A stretch of DNA of 45,040 bases from an uncultured Blastococcus sp. (GTDB taxonomy: Bacteria > Actinomycetota > Actinomycetes > Mycobacteriales > Geodermatophilaceae): NCBI GenBank assembly GCA_902805535.1, contig CADCTN010000034.1, positions 1 to 45,040 on the forward strand, in the 5' to 3' direction. Positions 6,703 through 17,973 of this stretch are shown here, piece after piece. The notes below the pieces were generated by a model. It had not been told where the DNA came from and ran no database searches. It saw only the letters and a list, made by a program, of their open reading frames with translations. The position numbers and the translations under genes are program-made. Position 1 is the first letter of the stretch, and every line of letters begins with the position of its first letter.

Positions 6703-7956
6703 ATGCCGAAGTCAGGAGTCTCCGTGATCGACGTCGGCGCGCTGCTGCACCACGTGGAGGACGCCGCCCCCATCGACGCCGTCGAGGTCGTCGCGGCGGA
6801 GCTCGGCGAGATGGTCGACGCGACGGCGGTGACCCTGCTCATCGCGGACTTCAGCGGCCGGGCCGTCGTCCGGCTCACCTCGGCCGGGCTGGTCGACGGC
6901 GCTCGCGGGCAGGGCGTGGAGCAGGCCGAGACCCTTCCGCTGTCCGGCACGACGTACGAGAAGGTCCTGCGCACGCAACAGGCCGACGTCCAGGACGTCG
7001 GCGACGGCGCGCGGATGGTCGTCCCGGTGACCGACCGCGGGGACGCCATCGGGCTGCTGGAGCTCGACCTGCCGCGGTACCCGTCCGAGGACGAGGTCGC
7101 CGACATCAGCGGCGCGGCCCACGCCCTGGCCTACGTCGTCATCGCCGCGCGTCGCCACACCGACGTCTTCGAGTGGGGCCAGCGCTCCACCCCCTTCGCC
7201 CTCGCCGCCGAGATCCAGCGCCGCCTGCTGCCGGCCTCCTACACCTGCGAGGCCGGGCAGTTCACCCTCGCCGGCTGGCTGGAGCCCGCGGCGACCGTGG
7301 GCGGCGACACCTTCGACTACACGCTGGACCGGGACTACCTGCACGTCTCCATCACCGACGCCGTCGGGCACCAGGTGGCGGCGTCCCTGCTCGCGACCCT
7401 CCTGGTGGGCAGCCTGCGCAACGGACGGCGCAAGGGCCTGGACCTGGCCGGGCAGGCGCGGTACGCCAACGACTCGCTGGCGCAGAACAGCGCGCCCGGT
7501 CAGTTCGTGACCGGGCAGCTGCTGCGGCTGGACCTGTGCGCGGGCCGGGCGGAGATCGTCAACGCCGGCCACACCCTCCCGCTCCGCCTGCGGGACGGGA
7601 AGGTGGAGGAGGTCGCGCTGGCCGTGGAGGCGCCCTTCGGCGTCGTGCCGGGCAAGGACTTCCTCGTGCAGCCCTTCCCGCTGGAGCCTGGCGACCGGAT
7701 CGTGTTCCTGACCGACGGGATGGTCGAGCGCAACGCCGCGGCCTTCGACGTCGCCGCCGCCCTGGCCGCCAGCGCCGAGCTGCACCCCCGGGAGGTCGTG
7801 CACGAGCTCGGTGCGGCGGTCCTGAAGGCCACCGGCGGGGACCTCGAGGACGACGCCACGATGGTCTGCCTGGACTGGTACGGGGGTCCGCCGCGCGGTC
7901 GGACGACGGAGTTCGGCGCCGATCGGGACCTCGCCTCGGCGCCCGCCGGACCCTGA
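6703..7956 (+). CDS. GAF-like plus SpoIIE/PP2C-type serine phosphatase
   Basis: A 417-residue cytoplasmic protein phosphatase of the PPM/SpoIIE class, the type that commonly dephosphorylates anti-sigma-factor antagonists. An N-terminal GAF-like sensor region (about 10-155) precedes the phosphatase, recognised by AAEIQRRLLP (about 168), VGGDTFDY in place of the usual GGDWYD metal motif, the DAVGHQVAASLLA segment, NAGHTLPL and the LTDGMVERN metal motif near 340. The ligand is not evident. Two starts compete: ATG 6703, placed for leaderless translation, and GTG 6724, with AGGAG five bases upstream. It stands alone, between sodN and the phospholipid genes; no anti-sigma partner is adjacent. Confidence 0.88.
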   Translation: MPKSGVSVIDVGALLHHVEDAAPIDAVEVVAAELGEMVDATAVTLLIADFSGRAVVRLTSAGLVDGARGQGVEQAETLPLSGTTYEKVLRTQQADVQDVGDGARMVVPVTDRGDAIGLLELDLPRYPSEDEVADISGAAHALAYVVIAARRHTDVFEWGQRSTPFALAAEIQRRLLPASYTCEAGQFTLAGWLEPAATVGGDTFDYTLDRDYLHVSITDAVGHQVAASLLATLLVGSLRNGRRKGLDLAGQARYANDSLAQNSAPGQFVTGQLLRLDLCAGRAEIVNAGHTLPLRLRDGKVEEVALAVEAPFGVVPGKDFLVQPFPLEPGDRIVFLTDGMVERNAAAFDVAAALAASAELHPREVVHELGAAVLKATGGDLEDDATMVCLDWYGGPPRGRTTEFGADRDLASAPAGP

Positions 7957-7983
7957 CGGCGGACCGGCGCACACCCGTGCCGG

Positions 7984-7989
7984 TACCGT
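7984..7989 (+). promoter_or_regulatory. -10 element for the psd operon
   Basis: TACCGT with 10 bases to ATG 8000. The spacing implies a leader of only a few bases, and no ribosome site is present. Confidence 0.45.
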
Positions 7990-7999
7990 TCGGCACACC

Positions 8000-8656
8000 A
8001 TGCGCATCGACCGGGCCGGGTGGCCTTTCATCACCGGACCCCTGGCCCCCGCGGCCCTCGCAGCCCTCGCCGGACGCCGGTGGGCGGCGTGGCCGTTCCT
8101 GGGGCTGTCGGCCTACATGGCGCTCTTCTTCCGGGACCCCGACCGTCGCTGCGACACCGTCGCGCCCCACCCGGACGACGTCCTCTCCCCCGCCGACGGC
8201 GTGGTGATGGTCGCCGGGACGCCGCAGGACGGCGTCGCTCCCGACGGGAACTGGCAGCAGGTCAGCGTCTTCCTCTCCGTGGTCGACGTGCACGTCAACC
8301 GGTCGCCGTACCGCGGCGAGGTCGTGCAGAGCTCCTACCGCAAGGGCAGCTTCCTGGCCGCCTACCGCAAGGAGTCCGCGCACCGGAACGAGCGCAGCGA
8401 GCTGTGGCTGCGGAACGGCGAGGGCCCCGGCGCCCGCACCGTCGTCTTCCGGCAGATCGTGGGCGTCCTGGCCCGCCGGATCGTCACGCGCACGGGACCG
8501 GGGCAGCGGCTGGCCACCGGCGAGCGCATGGGCCTGATGAAGTTCGGCTCGCGCATGGACGTGTTCGTCCCGCCGGAGTGCACGGTGGCCGTGACGAGGG
8601 GACAGCGGGTGCGGGGCGGCGAGACCGTCATCGCGCGCTGGCCCGCCGCGGGCTGA
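8000..8656 (+). CDS. psd: Phosphatidylserine decarboxylase proenzyme
   Basis: Converts phosphatidylserine to phosphatidylethanolamine at the membrane, using a pyruvoyl group made by self-cleavage. The 218-residue short-form proenzyme has an N-terminal membrane segment (about 12-40), SPADGVV near residue 63, DVHVNRSPYRG near 96, and the FGSRMDVF cleavage motif near residue 182, where the bond between Gly and Ser is cut. It precedes pssA by 12 bases, so one operon makes phosphatidylserine and then decarboxylates it. Confidence 0.95.
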   Translation: MRIDRAGWPFITGPLAPAALAALAGRRWAAWPFLGLSAYMALFFRDPDRRCDTVAPHPDDVLSPADGVVMVAGTPQDGVAPDGNWQQVSVFLSVVDVHVNRSPYRGEVVQSSYRKGSFLAAYRKESAHRNERSELWLRNGEGPGARTVVFRQIVGVLARRIVTRTGPGQRLATGERMGLMKFGSRMDVFVPPECTVAVTRGQRVRGGETVIARWPAAG

Positions 8657-8668
8657 GGAGGTCGCGCC

Positions 8669-13009: not shown

Positions 13010-14503
13010 CTACCGGCGCGGCAGGCCCGCGCCGGGGAGGGTGAGCACGGCCTCGGTCCCCCGCCGTCCGTCGGTGTCCGGGGCGCACGGGCTGCTCATC
13101 GACAGCGTTCCGCCGAGCTCGCTGGTGACCAGCGTCCGGACGATCTGCAGCCCGAGCCCGTTGCTGCCGGCGGGATCGAAGCCGTCCGGGAGCCCCTGAC
13201 CGTTGTCCCGGACGCGGACGACGAGGTCGTCGCCGTCCCGCTCGGCGACCAGCTCGATGCTGCCCGGCCCCTCCGGGAAGGCGTGCTCGGCCGCGTTGTG
13301 CAGCAGCTCGGTCACCGCCAGCACGAGCGGTGTGGCCGCCGCCGCGGGCAGCTCCCCGAACGAGCCGGTGCGTCTGGTCCGGGCCGCCGGGCCGACGGAG
13401 GTCAGGTCGCCCAGCATCGGCAGCACCTGGTCGAGGACGTCGTCCACGTCGACGACGTCCTCGCGGCTGCCGGCCAGCGTCTCGTGCACGACGGCGATCG
13501 ACGCCACCCGGCGCACCGACTCCTCGAGGGCGGCACGCGCGGCCGGCTCGGTCATGCGGCGCGCCTGCAGGCGCAGCAGCGCAGCGACCGTCTGCAGGTT
13601 GTTCTTCACCCGGTGATGGATCTCCCGGATGGTGGCGTCCTTGGTGAGCAGGGCGCGGTCCCGGCGCCGGACGTCGGTGACGTCGCGGACGAGGACCAGG
13701 GCGCCGGCCTCGCCCCCCGGCGCCTGCAGCGGCAGGGCGCGCACGAGCATCGTCGCCGTCGTACCCTCGACGTCCATCGGGTCGGGGAATCGCCCCGCCA
13801 CGGCGGCGGCGATCCCCGCCGCCGCCGCTTCACCGGCTACGCGGTCGGCCGCGGCGCACCGCGTCAGCTCGGCGAGGTCCGCGCCGACGACGTCACCGGC
13901 CACCCCGATGCGGCGGTAGGCCGACAGCGCGTTGGGGCTGGCGTAGGCGGCCCGGCCCGCGCCGTCCAGCCGGACGAGCCCGTCGCCCACCCGGGGGCTC
14001 ATCTCGGCGTCCTGCAGCTTCTGCGGCGGGAAGGTCCCCGCCGAGACCATGAGGCAGAGGTCGGCGGCGATGTCGAGGTAGGTCAGCTCCAGCGTGGACG
14101 GCGAGCGGGTCGCGGCGAGGTTGGTGTCCTTGGCCAGGACCGCCACCGTCACGCCGTCGTGCCGGACGGGGATGACCTCCCGCCGGTGCGGCGCGGCACC
14201 GGCCCGGTCGGCCTCCCCCTCGGTCACCGGGTGCCCCTCGCGGTGGGCCGTCCGGAACGGCTCGGCGACCTCGCCGGAGACCTCGGCCCCCACCAGGTCC
14301 TCGGGACGGCTGGTGGGCGCGGTCAGCGGGCGCACCTGGGCCACGCACCACCATGTTCCACCCGCCAGCGGCACCCACAGCGTCAGATCGGCGAAGGCCA
14401 GGTCGGCCAGCAGCTGCCAGTCGGCGACCAGGCGCCGCGCGTGGTCGACCTGCGCGGGGCTGGAGGCGGAGCCGCGGGTGAGGCGTTCGGAGAGGCTGCT
14501 CAT
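13010..14503 (-). CDS. pdtaS: Two-component sensor histidine kinase, PdtaS type
   Basis: A 497-residue soluble histidine kinase. The N-terminal GAF-like domain (about 15-150) starts VDHARRLVADWQLLADLAFADL, as in PdtaS; a PAS-like domain (about 175-275) follows. The HisKA_2 phosphoacceptor is EIHHRVKNNLQ near 303, and the HATPase has LLHNAAEHAF, RVRDNGQGLP and NGLGLQIV near 400-470. PdtaS normally phosphorylates the ANTAR antiterminator PdtaR, which is not in this window. The position after whiB1 matches Rv3220c. A TAGGCT element lies 9 bases before ATG 14503, so the transcript is leaderless or nearly so. Confidence 0.93.
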   Translation of the reverse strand: MSSLSERLTRGSASSPAQVDHARRLVADWQLLADLAFADLTLWVPLAGGTWWCVAQVRPLTAPTSRPEDLVGAEVSGEVAEPFRTAHREGHPVTEGEADRAGAAPHRREVIPVRHDGVTVAVLAKDTNLAATRSPSTLELTYLDIAADLCLMVSAGTFPPQKLQDAEMSPRVGDGLVRLDGAGRAAYASPNALSAYRRIGVAGDVVGADLAELTRCAAADRVAGEAAAAGIAAAVAGRFPDPMDVEGTTATMLVRALPLQAPGGEAGALVLVRDVTDVRRRDRALLTKDATIREIHHRVKNNLQTVAALLRLQARRMTEPAARAALEESVRRVASIAVVHETLAGSREDVVDVDDVLDQVLPMLGDLTSVGPAARTRRTGSFGELPAAAATPLVLAVTELLHNAAEHAFPEGPGSIELVAERDGDDLVVRVRDNGQGLPDGFDPAGSNGLGLQIVRTLVTSELGGTLSMSSPCAPDTDGRRGTEAVLTLPGAGLPRR

Positions 14504-14566: not shown

Positions 14567-15070
14567 GTGGCCCAGCACGCCCCTCCCCTGTCCGTCCGGC
14601 CGGCCGGTCCCGAGGACCACGCCGGGATCGCCGAGCTGACGGTCCGGGTGTACGTCGACGGGGGGCTCGCCTCCAGCGACTACACCACGCAGCTGGCCGA
14701 CGTCGCCGGCCGGGCCGACCGCGCGGAGCTCCTGGTGGTGAGCGACGAGGACGACCGGATCGTCGGCAGCGTGGCGCTGGTCCTCGCCGGCGACTTCGGC
14801 GAGATCACGACGTCGGACGACGAGGCGGCTTTCCGGATGCTCGTCGTGGACCCCGCCGCCCGGGGCAGGGGCATCGGCGAGCTGCTCGTCACCACCTGCC
14901 TGGACCGCGCCCGCGCCGCCGGCAAGCGCCGGATGGTGCTCTCGACCGATCCGCGCATGACCACCGCGCACCGGCTCTACCACCGGCTGGGGTTCACCCG
15001 GCTGCCCGAGCGGGACTGGTCCCCGGTGCCCGGGGTGGACCTGCTCGCCTACTCCTGCGAGCTCGGCTGA
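14567..15070 (+). CDS. GNAT family N-acetyltransferase
   Basis: A 167-residue acetyltransferase. The acetyl-CoA core is MLVVDPAARGRGIGELLVTTCLDRARAAG (about 94-120), followed by THRLYHRLGF-type TAHRLYHRLGFTRLPERDW. The N-terminal part begins SVRPAGPEDHAGIAELT. The substrate is unknown; the C-terminal RDW(S)P resembles antibiotic and amine acetyltransferase families but does not specify one. It sits divergently from pdtaS and converges on the biotinyl-protein gene with 9 bases between stops. Confidence 0.88.
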   Translation: MAQHAPPLSVRPAGPEDHAGIAELTVRVYVDGGLASSDYTTQLADVAGRADRAELLVVSDEDDRIVGSVALVLAGDFGEITTSDDEAAFRMLVVDPAARGRGIGELLVTTCLDRARAAGKRRMVLSTDPRMTTAHRLYHRLGFTRLPERDWSPVPGVDLLAYSCELG

Positions 15071-15079
15071 AGGACCCCG

Positions 15080-15304
15080 TCAGCCGTCGGTGACGGTGGC
15101 GATCAGGTCGCCCTCCTGGAGGACCTCACCCTCGACGACGTGCATCTCCTGCACGACGCCGGCGTGCTCGGAGAGCACCGGGATCTCCATCTTCATGGAC
15201 TCGAGGATCACCAGCGTGTCCCCCGCAGCGACCGGCGCACCGGGCTGCACGAGGACCTTCCACACGCTGGAGACCATCTCCGCGTGGATCTCCTCGACCG
15301 CCAC
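15080..15304 (-). CDS. Stand-alone biotin/lipoyl attachment-domain protein, TB7.3-like
   Basis: A 74-residue single biotinyl domain. The attachment motif ESMKMEIP puts the biotinylated Lys at residue 38, and the second half repeats the fold (VVQEMHVVEGEVLQEGDLIATV). It closely resembles the 71-residue mycobacterial TB7.3 (Rv3221c), which has the same neighbours. Start: GTG 15304, with GAGGAGG ending 4 bases upstream; the ORF-track ATG at 15349 has no site. It follows the degenerate biotin carboxylase gene on the same strand by 54 bases, probably as one operon. What carboxylase, if any, uses it is unknown. Confidence 0.93.
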   Translation of the reverse strand: MAVEEIHAEMVSSVWKVLVQPGAPVAAGDTLVILESMKMEIPVLSEHAGVVQEMHVVEGEVLQEGDLIATVTDG

Positions 15305-15358
15305 CGTGCCTCCTCTGTAGCTGCGCACCTTCCGGGCGCAGCCATCCAAGCACGCCGG

Positions 15359-16408
15359 TCAGCCGGTGGGGACGCCGCTGCCGATCGCCAGTCGCTCCAG
15401 CACCGCGGAGGTGTCCGCCCCGTCGTGGGGCACCCCGACGTCGGGGAGCGCCGACAGCACCCCCGACACCGCGGCGGCAGCGGTCCGGGTGTCGGGGCCG
15501 GCCGCGCTCACCGAGCCCAGCAGCGCGTCGTACCAGCCGTCCAGGCGGTCCCCAGGGTCGAAGCCGCTCACGGCCACCAGGTCGACGTCCGCGGCGGGGC
15601 CCGGCTGCGGTCCCGACGGCAGCCGGCCGGTGATCCGGCCCGGGGTGCCCGCCGACAGCGTCGCGCGCAGCTGGGCGGCGACGGCCGCCCGGGGGGTCCG
15701 GCCGGCCGGCTGCGAGCCGCTCGTGGTGGCCGTGCTCGACAGCGCGAGCTCGACGGCGTCCACGCCGTGCGCCCGCTCGAGCACGGCGATGTCCAGCGAG
15801 AACCCGGCGGCCACCTCCGCCAGCCCCCCGTCGGGCGAGATGCCGACGGTCACCAGCCCGCGCCAGCCCACCTCGGCCAGGCGCCGGGCGGCCGGGGGCA
15901 GGTCCAGGGCGCCGGTGGCCGCCCAGCCCTCCGGCGTCCAGGACACCCGGGCGATGCCGGCCGCCCGGTCCCGCGCGACGGGGGTGACGAACCGCAGCCC
16001 CTCGGGGGTGACCCAGGCGAGGAATCCGCTCTCGCTGGCCGGCTCCACCCCGTCGCCGCCCAGGCGCTCCAGCACCTCCGCGTCCGGTCCCACCCAGAGC
16101 AGGCCCGCGTCGGCCACCGCGGCGGCCAGCCGGGCGTTTCCGGCCAGTGCCGGCGTCACCGGGAGGACGGCGCGCACGCCGCTGCGCCGGGCGGCCTCCA
16201 CGATGCGGTGCACGGCCAGGTAGGACTCGCTCGCCGGGGCCGGCCCCAGGAGCACGGCGTCATCGGCCAGCCGCACGTGCCGGGCCGAGCGCTCGGCCTC
16301 CGAGTACACGGCGACGGCCTTCACCCCGAGCCGGGTGCACGCCGACACCACCGCGGACGCCGCCGGTCCACGGCCGGCCACGAGCACGCTCTCGATCTCC
16401 AGTGCCAC
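15359..16408 (-). CDS. Degenerate biotin-carboxylase-like protein lacking the ATP-grasp active site
   Basis: About 349 residues. The first 110 are a clear biotin-carboxylase N-terminal domain: VLVAGRGPAASAVVSACTRL, VAVYSEAERSARHVRLAD, GPAPASESYL, and a GLLWVGPDAEVLERL end. The GYGFLAEN-type segment has become VTPALAGN. The ATP-grasp region is largely replaced: no MGDK-type start, no GGGGRGM phosphate loop, no ExNxR. Echoes of the carboxylase remain in GFSLDIAVLERAHGVDAVELAL and in a C-terminal LLGSVSAAGPDTRTAAAA. The frame is intact and the residues look constrained, so it seems a decayed but expressed relative rather than a pseudogene. Start GTG 16408 (16411 is also possible) follows AGGGGGG. 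It is upstream of the biotinyl protein. Confidence 0.72.
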   Translation of the reverse strand: MALEIESVLVAGRGPAASAVVSACTRLGVKAVAVYSEAERSARHVRLADDAVLLGPAPASESYLAVHRIVEAARRSGVRAVLPVTPALAGNARLAAAVADAGLLWVGPDAEVLERLGGDGVEPASESGFLAWVTPEGLRFVTPVARDRAAGIARVSWTPEGWAATGALDLPPAARRLAEVGWRGLVTVGISPDGGLAEVAAGFSLDIAVLERAHGVDAVELALSSTATTSGSQPAGRTPRAAVAAQLRATLSAGTPGRITGRLPSGPQPGPAADVDLVAVSGFDPGDRLDGWYDALLGSVSAAGPDTRTAAAAVSGVLSALPDVGVPHDGADTSAVLERLAIGSGVPTG

Positions 16409-16579: not shown

Positions 16580-16654
16580 ATGTCCAAGCGTGGACGCAAG
16601 CGTCGCTCCCGCAAGGGAAGCAAGGCCAACCACGGCAAGCGGCCCAACGCCTGA
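16580..16654 (+). CDS. 50S ribosomal protein bL37 (AURKAIP1/COX24 domain)
   Basis: A 24-residue, extremely basic protein, MSKRGRKRRSRK...SKANHGKRPNA, too short for the ORF track. It matches the 24-residue mycobacterial ribosomal protein bL37 (SKANHGKRPN is the conserved end), a small subunit seen in actinobacterial 50S structures. AGGAGG at 16568-16573 lies 6 bases before ATG 16580, an excellent ribosome site, and a 16-bp hairpin follows. It stands alone, convergent with rsrA. Confidence 0.93.
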   Translation: MSKRGRKRRSRKGSKANHGKRPNA

Positions 16655-16743: not shown

Positions 16744-17094
16744 TCAGACGAGGTCGTCCCCGGACCGCTCGGTCAGCGTCTGCGCGGTGATCCGCTCGAC
16801 GCTGACTTGTGTGCCGTCCTCCGCGAAGGAGACGGTGGTCAGCTGGACCTTGATCCGCTCCCGCAGTCCGGACGGCGGGGCGTCTCCACCGCACCGGCGG
16901 CGGACCAGCGCCTTGAACTCCTGCTCGATCCCGAACTCGCGCAGGCACGACGAGCAGTCCTCGAGGTGCTCGGCGATCTGCGCGCGGCGGGCGGCGCCGG
17001 TCTCGTGGTCGAGGAACTCGAACACGTGGGAGAGGACGTCGTCACAGGAGTGGATGTCGATCAGCTCGCCGTCGTCATGGACGTCGTCGGTCAT
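16744..17094 (-). CDS. rsrA: Zinc-binding redox-sensing anti-sigma factor, RsrA/RshA type
   Basis: A 116-residue ZAS-family anti-sigma factor. The zinc and redox motif is HLEDCSSC (HxxxCxxC) near residues 43-50, with an upstream Cys in DIHSCDDV near 17 supplying the fourth ligand, as in RsrA. Under thiol oxidation such proteins form a disulfide, lose zinc and release the sigma factor. The N-terminal acidic stretch [12 protein letters not shown] and a C-terminal tail of about 50 residues complete it. Its ATG overlaps the sigH stop as ATGA, giving coupled synthesis of sigma and anti-sigma factor. Confidence 0.93.
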
Positions 17095-17777
17095 GACTGG
17101 CTCGCCTCCTCACCGGCTCCGGCGCGGACGAAGCCGCGCTCACGGGCGTAATCGGCCAGCAGCTTCTGCAGACCCCGACGGCCACGGTGCAGCCGCGACA
17201 TCACCGTGCCGATGGGCGTGCCCATGATCTCGGCGATCTCCTTGTAGGCGAACCCCTCGACGTCGGCCAGGTACACCGCGAGCCGGAAGTCCTCCGGCAG
17301 CTGCTGGAGGGCCTCCTTGATGTCGCTGTCCGGCAGGTGGTCCAGCGCCTCGATCTCGGCCGACCGCAGGCCGCGGGAGGTGTGCTCCTCCGCGGCGTAG
17401 AGCTGCCAGTCCTGCACCTGCTCGGTGGGGTACTGCTGCGGCTGGCGCTGCTTCTTGCGGTAGCTGTTGATGTAGGTGTTCGTCAGGATCCGGTACAGCC
17501 ACGCCTTGAGGTTCGTGCCCTCGGCGAACTGGTGGAAAGCCGAGTAGGCCTTGACGAACGTCTCCTGCACCAGGTCCTCGGCGTCGGCCGGGTTGCGGGT
17601 CATCCGCAGGGCCGCCGGGTAGAGCTGGTCCAGGAAGGGCAGCGCGTCGCGCTCGAAGCGGGCGTCCCGCTCCGCGCGGGTCTCGGCCACCTCGGCCCGG
17701 CTGCCGTCCGCCCGCGCTTCGGGTGTCTCCACCAAGGGTGTGCCCTCGGGGATCTGATCTGCGGTCTGCTCAGGCAC
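17091..17777 (-). CDS. sigH: ECF sigma factor SigH/SigR (thiol-oxidative stress)
   Basis: A 228-residue ECF sigma factor directing RNA polymerase to oxidative and heat stress genes. Region 2 shows [34 protein letters not shown] and [13 protein letters not shown]; region 4 is [39 protein letters not shown] 17777 is chosen for the short form because GAGGA lies 6 bases upstream. An in-frame GTG at 17906 would add 43 residues and lies just downstream of a SigH-type promoter, so a longer isoform is likely (see findings). RsrA, encoded next with an ATGA overlap, is the cognate anti-sigma factor. Confidence 0.95.
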
Positions 17778-17824
17778 CGACCGTCCTCTCTGTGGCCCCC
17801 GGATGCGGGGCGCCGCATCGGTCG

Positions 17825-17830
17825 ATCCTA
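17825..17830 (-). promoter_or_regulatory. Proximal -10 element of sigH
   Basis: TAGGAT on the minus strand predicts a start near 17818 and a leader of about 40 bases, with the GAGGA site before GTG 17777. Such a transcript excludes GTG 17906 and would make only the short SigH. Confidence 0.4.
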
Positions 17831-17915
17831 GCCGCGCGTTGTCGGGGCGGCCTGGGGGCCGCCGGAGTGGAGACCTCGGGCGGGCGCTGGAGACGGTGCT
17901 GCTCACGGTGGTCCC

Positions 17916-17942
17916 AACCGCCGGGGCGGGGTCACGATTCCC
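17916..17942 (-). promoter_or_regulatory. SigH/SigR-type autoregulatory promoter
   Basis: On the minus strand GGGAAT (17942-17937), exactly 18 bases, then GTT (17918-17916). This is the full SigR consensus known from Streptomyces (GGGAAT-N18-GTT). The in-frame GTG 17906 begins 9 bases after GTT, within the usual distance to the transcription start. Confidence 0.8.
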
Positions 17943-17973
17943 ACGAGGCCGGGGCAACCCGCCAGAACCTCGC

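Follow-up and report, generated by a model that had tools for sequence, protein, structure and literature searches.

A biotin carboxylase (BC) homologue encoded in the 45,040-nucleotide stretch of uncultured Blastococcus DNA analysed here (the window) is, as judged from its sequence, a pseudoenzyme descended from the stand-alone BC subunit of a split acyl-CoA carboxylase. This protein, termed pBC, has a predicted BC fold without the lid, and it is maintained by purifying selection next to a TB7.3-type biotinyl carrier in a sigR-rsrA locus. It probably has a non-enzymatic or new job.

The pBC locus

The features of the locus are as follows.

15359..16408, reverse strand: pBC, lidless pseudo-biotin carboxylase, 349 residues, GTG start (PF00289, alignment to active BCs, AF2, Foldseek)
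pBC residues about 1-113: N-domain
pBC residues 117-126: junction GGDGVEPASE
pBC residues about 127-225 (about 125-225): degenerate ATP-grasp second half
pBC residues about 240-345: degenerate C-domain
15080..15304, reverse strand: TB7.3-type biotinyl carrier, about 74 residues, ESMKME intact (NF004547, alignment, RBS)
17091..17957, reverse strand: SigR/SigH-type sigma factor frame, upstream slot marker, conserved in related loci
16744..17094, reverse strand: RsrA-like anti-sigma factor, upstream slot marker, conserved upstream in related loci
16580..16654, forward strand: bS22-like small basic protein MSKRGRKRRSRKGSKANHGKRPNA, between rsrA and pBC
14567..15070, forward strand: GNAT acetyltransferase-like gene, downstream marker, conserved in relatives
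13010..14503, reverse strand: PdtaS-like sensor histidine kinase, downstream marker, conserved in relatives
Beyond the PdtaS-like kinase, forward strand: WhiB1-like gene

The frames of pBC and the TB7.3-like gene follow one another on the reverse strand, at the coordinates and in the order given in a preliminary description of this DNA. The carrier frame is open from 15349 (15080-15349), with a GTG at 15304 behind AGGAGG that is the more likely start, and an AGGAGG-like RBS also precedes the carrier in relatives. Against NF004547 (PRK05889, the TB7.3-type equivalog model) the carrier scores 108.2 bits, above the curated cut-off of 75, and it holds the biotinylation motif; the PRK08225 model matches it as well. 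It is presumably biotinylated in the cell. The names of the flanking genes (sigR, rsrA, GNAT, PdtaS, WhiB1) are presumed from established knowledge, not from family searches. The real sigR start probably lies inside its frame, and a small frame at the position of the bS22-like gene is common to relatives.

A SigR-type promoter before pBC was considered and rejected, as the sole pattern match is upstream of sigR. This match (GGAAT-N18-GTT, 17916-17941, reverse strand; SigR/SigH-type) lies near the start of the sigR frame, with one match found vs 0.37 expected, and might fit autoregulation, if weakly. A conserved hairpin in the gap between pBC and the carrier (15305-15358, reverse strand) was likewise discarded: the perfect inverted repeat of the window, GCTGCGC-9-GCGCAGC, is absent from relatives.

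Loss of the lid and of the catalytic residues

In a Pfam search pBC residues 5-113 match Biotin_carb_N (PF00289, 5.5e-28), and the NCBIfam BC models cover just the same ~115 residues; neither PF02786 nor PF02785, nor any other Pfam domain beyond PF00289, is matched even at E<=1. The preliminary description had recognized the N-terminal BC domain and traces of the C-terminal part, and had proposed a search with PF00289 and PF02786. The former is matched and the latter is not, and the degenerate C-domain is recognizable by alignment and fold. Its further statement that the ATP-grasp core is lost stands in part: the lid (the B subdomain, with the Gly-rich loop) has gone and other residues stand at the catalytic positions, yet the second half survives in degenerate form, as seen in the alignment, in the predicted fold and through an intermediate form described below (L113). 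Of the marks of an AccC-type enzyme, pBC has the N-terminal domain but not the PF02786 ATP-grasp domain with lid and Gly-rich loop, the lid being deleted in the alignment.

AlphaFold prediction of pBC from 54 alignment rows gave a pLDDT of 87.9 and a pTM of 0.90; prediction from 25 pBC rows without active BCs gave a pLDDT of 82.2 and a pTM of 0.86. In Foldseek searches with both models BC structures rank first (best E 4.4e-25 and 3.0e-23), so that even the model made from pBC rows only still matches BC; the top matches are AccA3 (5mlk), M. smegmatis complexes and E. coli BC, with TM by query of about 0.75-0.8. Both predictions thus show pBC as a folded, lidless BC. Structure prediction of the 349-residue protein alone had been proposed earlier as a check, and it returned this lidless fold with no intact ATP-grasp.

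Of the positions inspected that serve ATP, Mg, bicarbonate or biotin in catalysis (numbered as in E. coli and located by motif), E288 alone is retained in pBC. K116, K159, the Gly loop, H209, K238, E276, N290, R292, Q294, E296 and R338 are replaced or missing, and E201 is variable; since the pBC alignment is weak in the C-terminal half, single-residue calls there are less sure than the overall catalytic loss. In the active BCs that occupy the same slot in other families the catalytic residues are invariant. The description of the protein as a catalytically dead BC relative is thereby upheld, with the ATP-grasp fold not intact and the catalytic residues not in place, and an ordinary active BC-BCCP pair is ruled out by the absence of these residues. 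It is scarcely credible that pBC still works as an enzyme, whether carboxylase or ATP-grasp, through an unusual active site: its fold is BC-like overall, but the residues for ATP, Mg, bicarbonate and biotin, like the lid and the Gly-rich loop, are gone or replaced, and PF02786 is unmatched.

Conservation, linkage and origin

A genome scan found 52 loci that encode pBC, in Blastococcus, Geodermatophilus, Modestobacter, Klenkia, Goekera, Trujillonella and a few records labelled otherwise; the near-complete members (n=51) are nearly all from Geodermatophilaceae, and the closest named relative is Blastococcus haudaquaticus, with a pBC that is 87% identical. Each of the 51 near-complete members, the one in the window included, has an open frame of 335-354 residues, which rules out a sequencing or annotation artefact, and the family has long conserved blocks. 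There are 146 invariant positions, 48 of them common with active BCs and 76 different, and thus new. Many of the new invariant residues sit at the old active site; 23 new invariant positions are found in the ATP-grasp second half, where the EMNTRLQVEH strand of active BCs has become a fixed EVAAGFSLDxA. The N-domain is 48% identical to active split BCs, the C-terminal region 17-23% identical to active BCs.

Median pairwise dN/dS (Nei-Gojobori, base composition uncorrected, so that values are relative only) is 0.28 for pBC, 0.22 for PdtaS, 0.33 for RsrA, 0.40 for GNAT and 0.165 for the carrier. pBC is under purifying selection, its dN/dS resembling that of neighbouring genes, and selection is thus retained without catalytic residues, as in a pseudoenzyme. 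A decaying relic without function might be supposed from the eroded look of the pseudo-BCs in another family, f12 (in L138 a 324-residue frame from which most C-domain signal is gone). For the Geodermatophilaceae this is very improbable: the intact frames, together with constraint like that on PdtaS and RsrA and the long conserved blocks, argue strongly against it.

The carrier lies downstream of pBC, 35-157 bases away, in 49 of the 50 testable loci, and the neighbours are largely identical wherever a pBC contig extends far enough; the linkage with a single biotinyl protein claimed at the outset has thus been borne out by a genome survey. The one exception is Geodermatophilus sp. TF02-6 (L021:600-2215), in which the GNAT gene comes next after an intact pBC; a search of this genome found no TB7.3-type carrier elsewhere either. 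Conversely, the carrier is independent of pBC, since TB7.3 persists in many genomes without BC or pBC. In several Blastococcus genomes (L016, L025, L029, L057) the carrier and the GNAT gene are separated by about 1 kb of extra DNA.

In other families of the order the sigR-rsrA/carrier slot holds a full-length BC of about 450 residues with complete catalytic residues (L109 and L110 in family f9; L112 in f3; L115 in f7; L111 and L114 in f10). In L115 the split BC is fused with the TB7.3-type carrier in one 554-residue frame (6998-8662, reverse strand), and in both f10 loci an enoyl-CoA hydratase and an aminopeptidase lie between BC and carrier. Two MAG contigs show sigR-rsrA-BC up to the contig end (L062) and BC-hydratase-carrier (L067). 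The enoyl-CoA hydratase-family gene is directly 3' of the active BC at L067:6344-7108 (forward strand), L111:8869-9630 (forward strand) and L114:6480-7247 (reverse strand), and the order BC-hydratase-carrier is reminiscent of the Bacillus yng operon. Elsewhere (L120, L123, L125, L135) the split BC is located away from the carrier, which is at sigR, and near a TetR-type regulator and a carboxyltransferase (in L120 PF01039, 3e-156). A TetR-type regulator, split BC, HMG-CoA lyase and carboxyltransferase stand together, with the carrier far off at sigR, in L123:5718-12724 (forward strand) and L125:1715-8773 (reverse strand), an arrangement that points to a methylcrotonyl-CoA-carboxylase-like enzyme as the one served by TB7.3 in these two genomes.

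Kinship among genomes being ignored, the TB7.3-type carrier is present in 20/20 split-BC genomes of other families, and carboxyltransferase in 14/20 of these vs 0/32 genomes with neither split BC nor pBC. Among genomes of the pBC-bearing lineages, no active split BC was found in the 5 Geodermatophilaceae and 2 f12 genomes tested for it, and no partner carboxyltransferase in the 12 Geodermatophilaceae and 2 f12 genomes tested for that. The constant company of TB7.3 and split BC across the order suggests that the original role of TB7.3 was as carrier of a three-part acyl-CoA carboxylase; this bears on the function of the orphan biotinyl protein, which Mycobacterium tuberculosis has too. In the trees the pBC rows fall inside the split-BC side as one group (95/94; N-domain alone 91/92), with long branches, the pBC stem branch being very long at 3.34 changes per site. 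Synteny and tree together establish, at the level of sequence comparison, that pBC and the active split BC occupying this slot elsewhere share an ancestor.

Both f12 genomes examined (L113, L138) also carry a lidless BC in this slot. The L113 protein (393 residues) matches PF02786 only at profile positions 93-208 and has most catalytic residues replaced; that of L138 (324 residues) is more eroded. L113 looks like a possible intermediate, and as such it makes the residual BC homology of Geodermatophilaceae pBC clear. Geodermatophilaceae and f12 may have lost the lid in one event or in two: the gene tree joins the two (with long-branch warnings), the marker tree separates them, but a single clade is not rejected (AU p = 0.198). 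An active ancestor, a possible intermediate and a stabilized pseudoenzyme in the same slot of related families make this a tractable case of enzyme-subunit conversion.

Candidate roles and known counterparts

The preferred proposal, which is held with evenly balanced confidence, is that pBC partners the biotinylated carrier without catalysis, by docking, holding or capping it or by helping assembly. The preliminary description had suggested a scaffold or regulator of biotinylated proteins, which is a candidate role; one genome (L021) has pBC and no carrier. Its ancestor would have been the stand-alone BC of a split acyl-CoA carboxylase composed of BC, TB7.3-type carrier and carboxyltransferase. 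Towards the Geodermatophilaceae the lid would have been deleted, the catalytic residues replaced and the carboxyltransferase lost, pBC and carrier remaining side by side at sigR-rsrA and under purifying selection. pBC would have kept the carrier-docking surface of BCs and would act on the carrier without catalysis, the old active site having been rebuilt into a new fixed surface. The docking proposal is based on the conserved linkage (49/50) and on the carrier found in all 20 split-BC genomes; it supposes that pBC folds in the cell, that the carrier is biotinylated, that pBC binds it and that binding has an effect. Against docking stand the presence of pBC without carrier in L021, the persistence of TB7.3 without pBC, the low C-terminal identity (17-23%), with which the old docking surface may be gone, and the association with carboxyltransferase in just 14 of the 20 split-BC genomes.

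The main rival, possible if somewhat unlikely, is that pBC has left biotin chemistry altogether, the lidless fold and rebuilt site binding another ligand or partner, possibly tied to the thiol-stress function of sigR-rsrA, with the adjacency of the carrier simply inherited. The 76 new residues among 146 invariant ones and the replacement of EMNTRLQVEH by EVAAGFSLDxA favour such a change, as do a very long stem (3.34 changes per site) that gave way to constraint, and the carrier-free L021; on the other hand, only one of the 50 testable loci lacks the linked carrier, the N-domain is still 48% identical to active BCs, and no SigR-type promoter pattern precedes pBC. In a more specific and rather doubtful idea, lidless pBC would be a dedicated non-catalytic receptor at the redox-stress sigR locus, taking the carrier in its biotinylated or carboxy-biotinylated form; if it were true, the orphan biotin carrier would be part of a regulatory or storage device and not of a carboxylase. 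Unlikely too is that pBC serves as a subunit that helps to assemble or regulate the cell's other acyl-CoA carboxylases (AccA/AccD type), with their BC dimers or carrier domains as its partners in place of TB7.3. AccA-type BC frames are present in the same genome, mixed BC dimers offer a simple route for a dead relative to act, and glue subunits without catalytic function are on record for acyl-CoA carboxylases (PMC11926652), but no linkage of pBC to accA or accD was seen, the linkage being to TB7.3.

The docking proposal can be set beside several known systems. Compared with AccC or the BC domain of AccA3, pBC shares the overall fold, as predicted, minus the lid, and has 349 residues vs about 450. 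NF046056 (the BPTD_3102 family) comprises short carboxylase-like proteins of about 207 residues; it weakly matches the ATP-grasp second half of L113, whereas pBC has no match to it. In Bacillus subtilis, YngH/YngHB typify a split three-part acyl-CoA carboxylase with a 70-residue carrier. The split BC loci of the order likewise combine a stand-alone BC with a carrier of about 70 residues, in some genomes with HMG-CoA lyase, enoyl-CoA hydratase or carboxyltransferase nearby, whereas the pBC genomes tested are without active split BC and carboxyltransferase.

TB7.3 (Rv3221c) of Mycobacterium tuberculosis, which lies at the sigH locus, is like the window carrier in position and in that the latter scores above the NCBIfam cut-off for such carriers; the window differs in the pseudo-BC neighbour, and to our knowledge no pseudo-BC beside TB7.3 is known. 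The preliminary description likewise knew of no described function for such a pair, and none was found in the open-access literature. Within the mainly open-access papers searched, no inactive biotin carboxylase was found, and thus no dead one kept by selection. TB7.3 itself is listed only as a putative BCCP in a 2011 paper (PMC3048393).

The plant BADC proteins, non-catalytic BCCP relatives of heteromeric ACCase, are thought to aid BC-BCCP assembly (PMC11926652). They and pBC are both dead relatives of a carboxylase subunit, and may provide a working analogy; BADC is a dead carrier and pBC a dead carboxylase, and the two are non-homologous. By this analogy alone, pBC might play a BADC-like glue role, binding both carrier and BC and promoting assembly of their complex.
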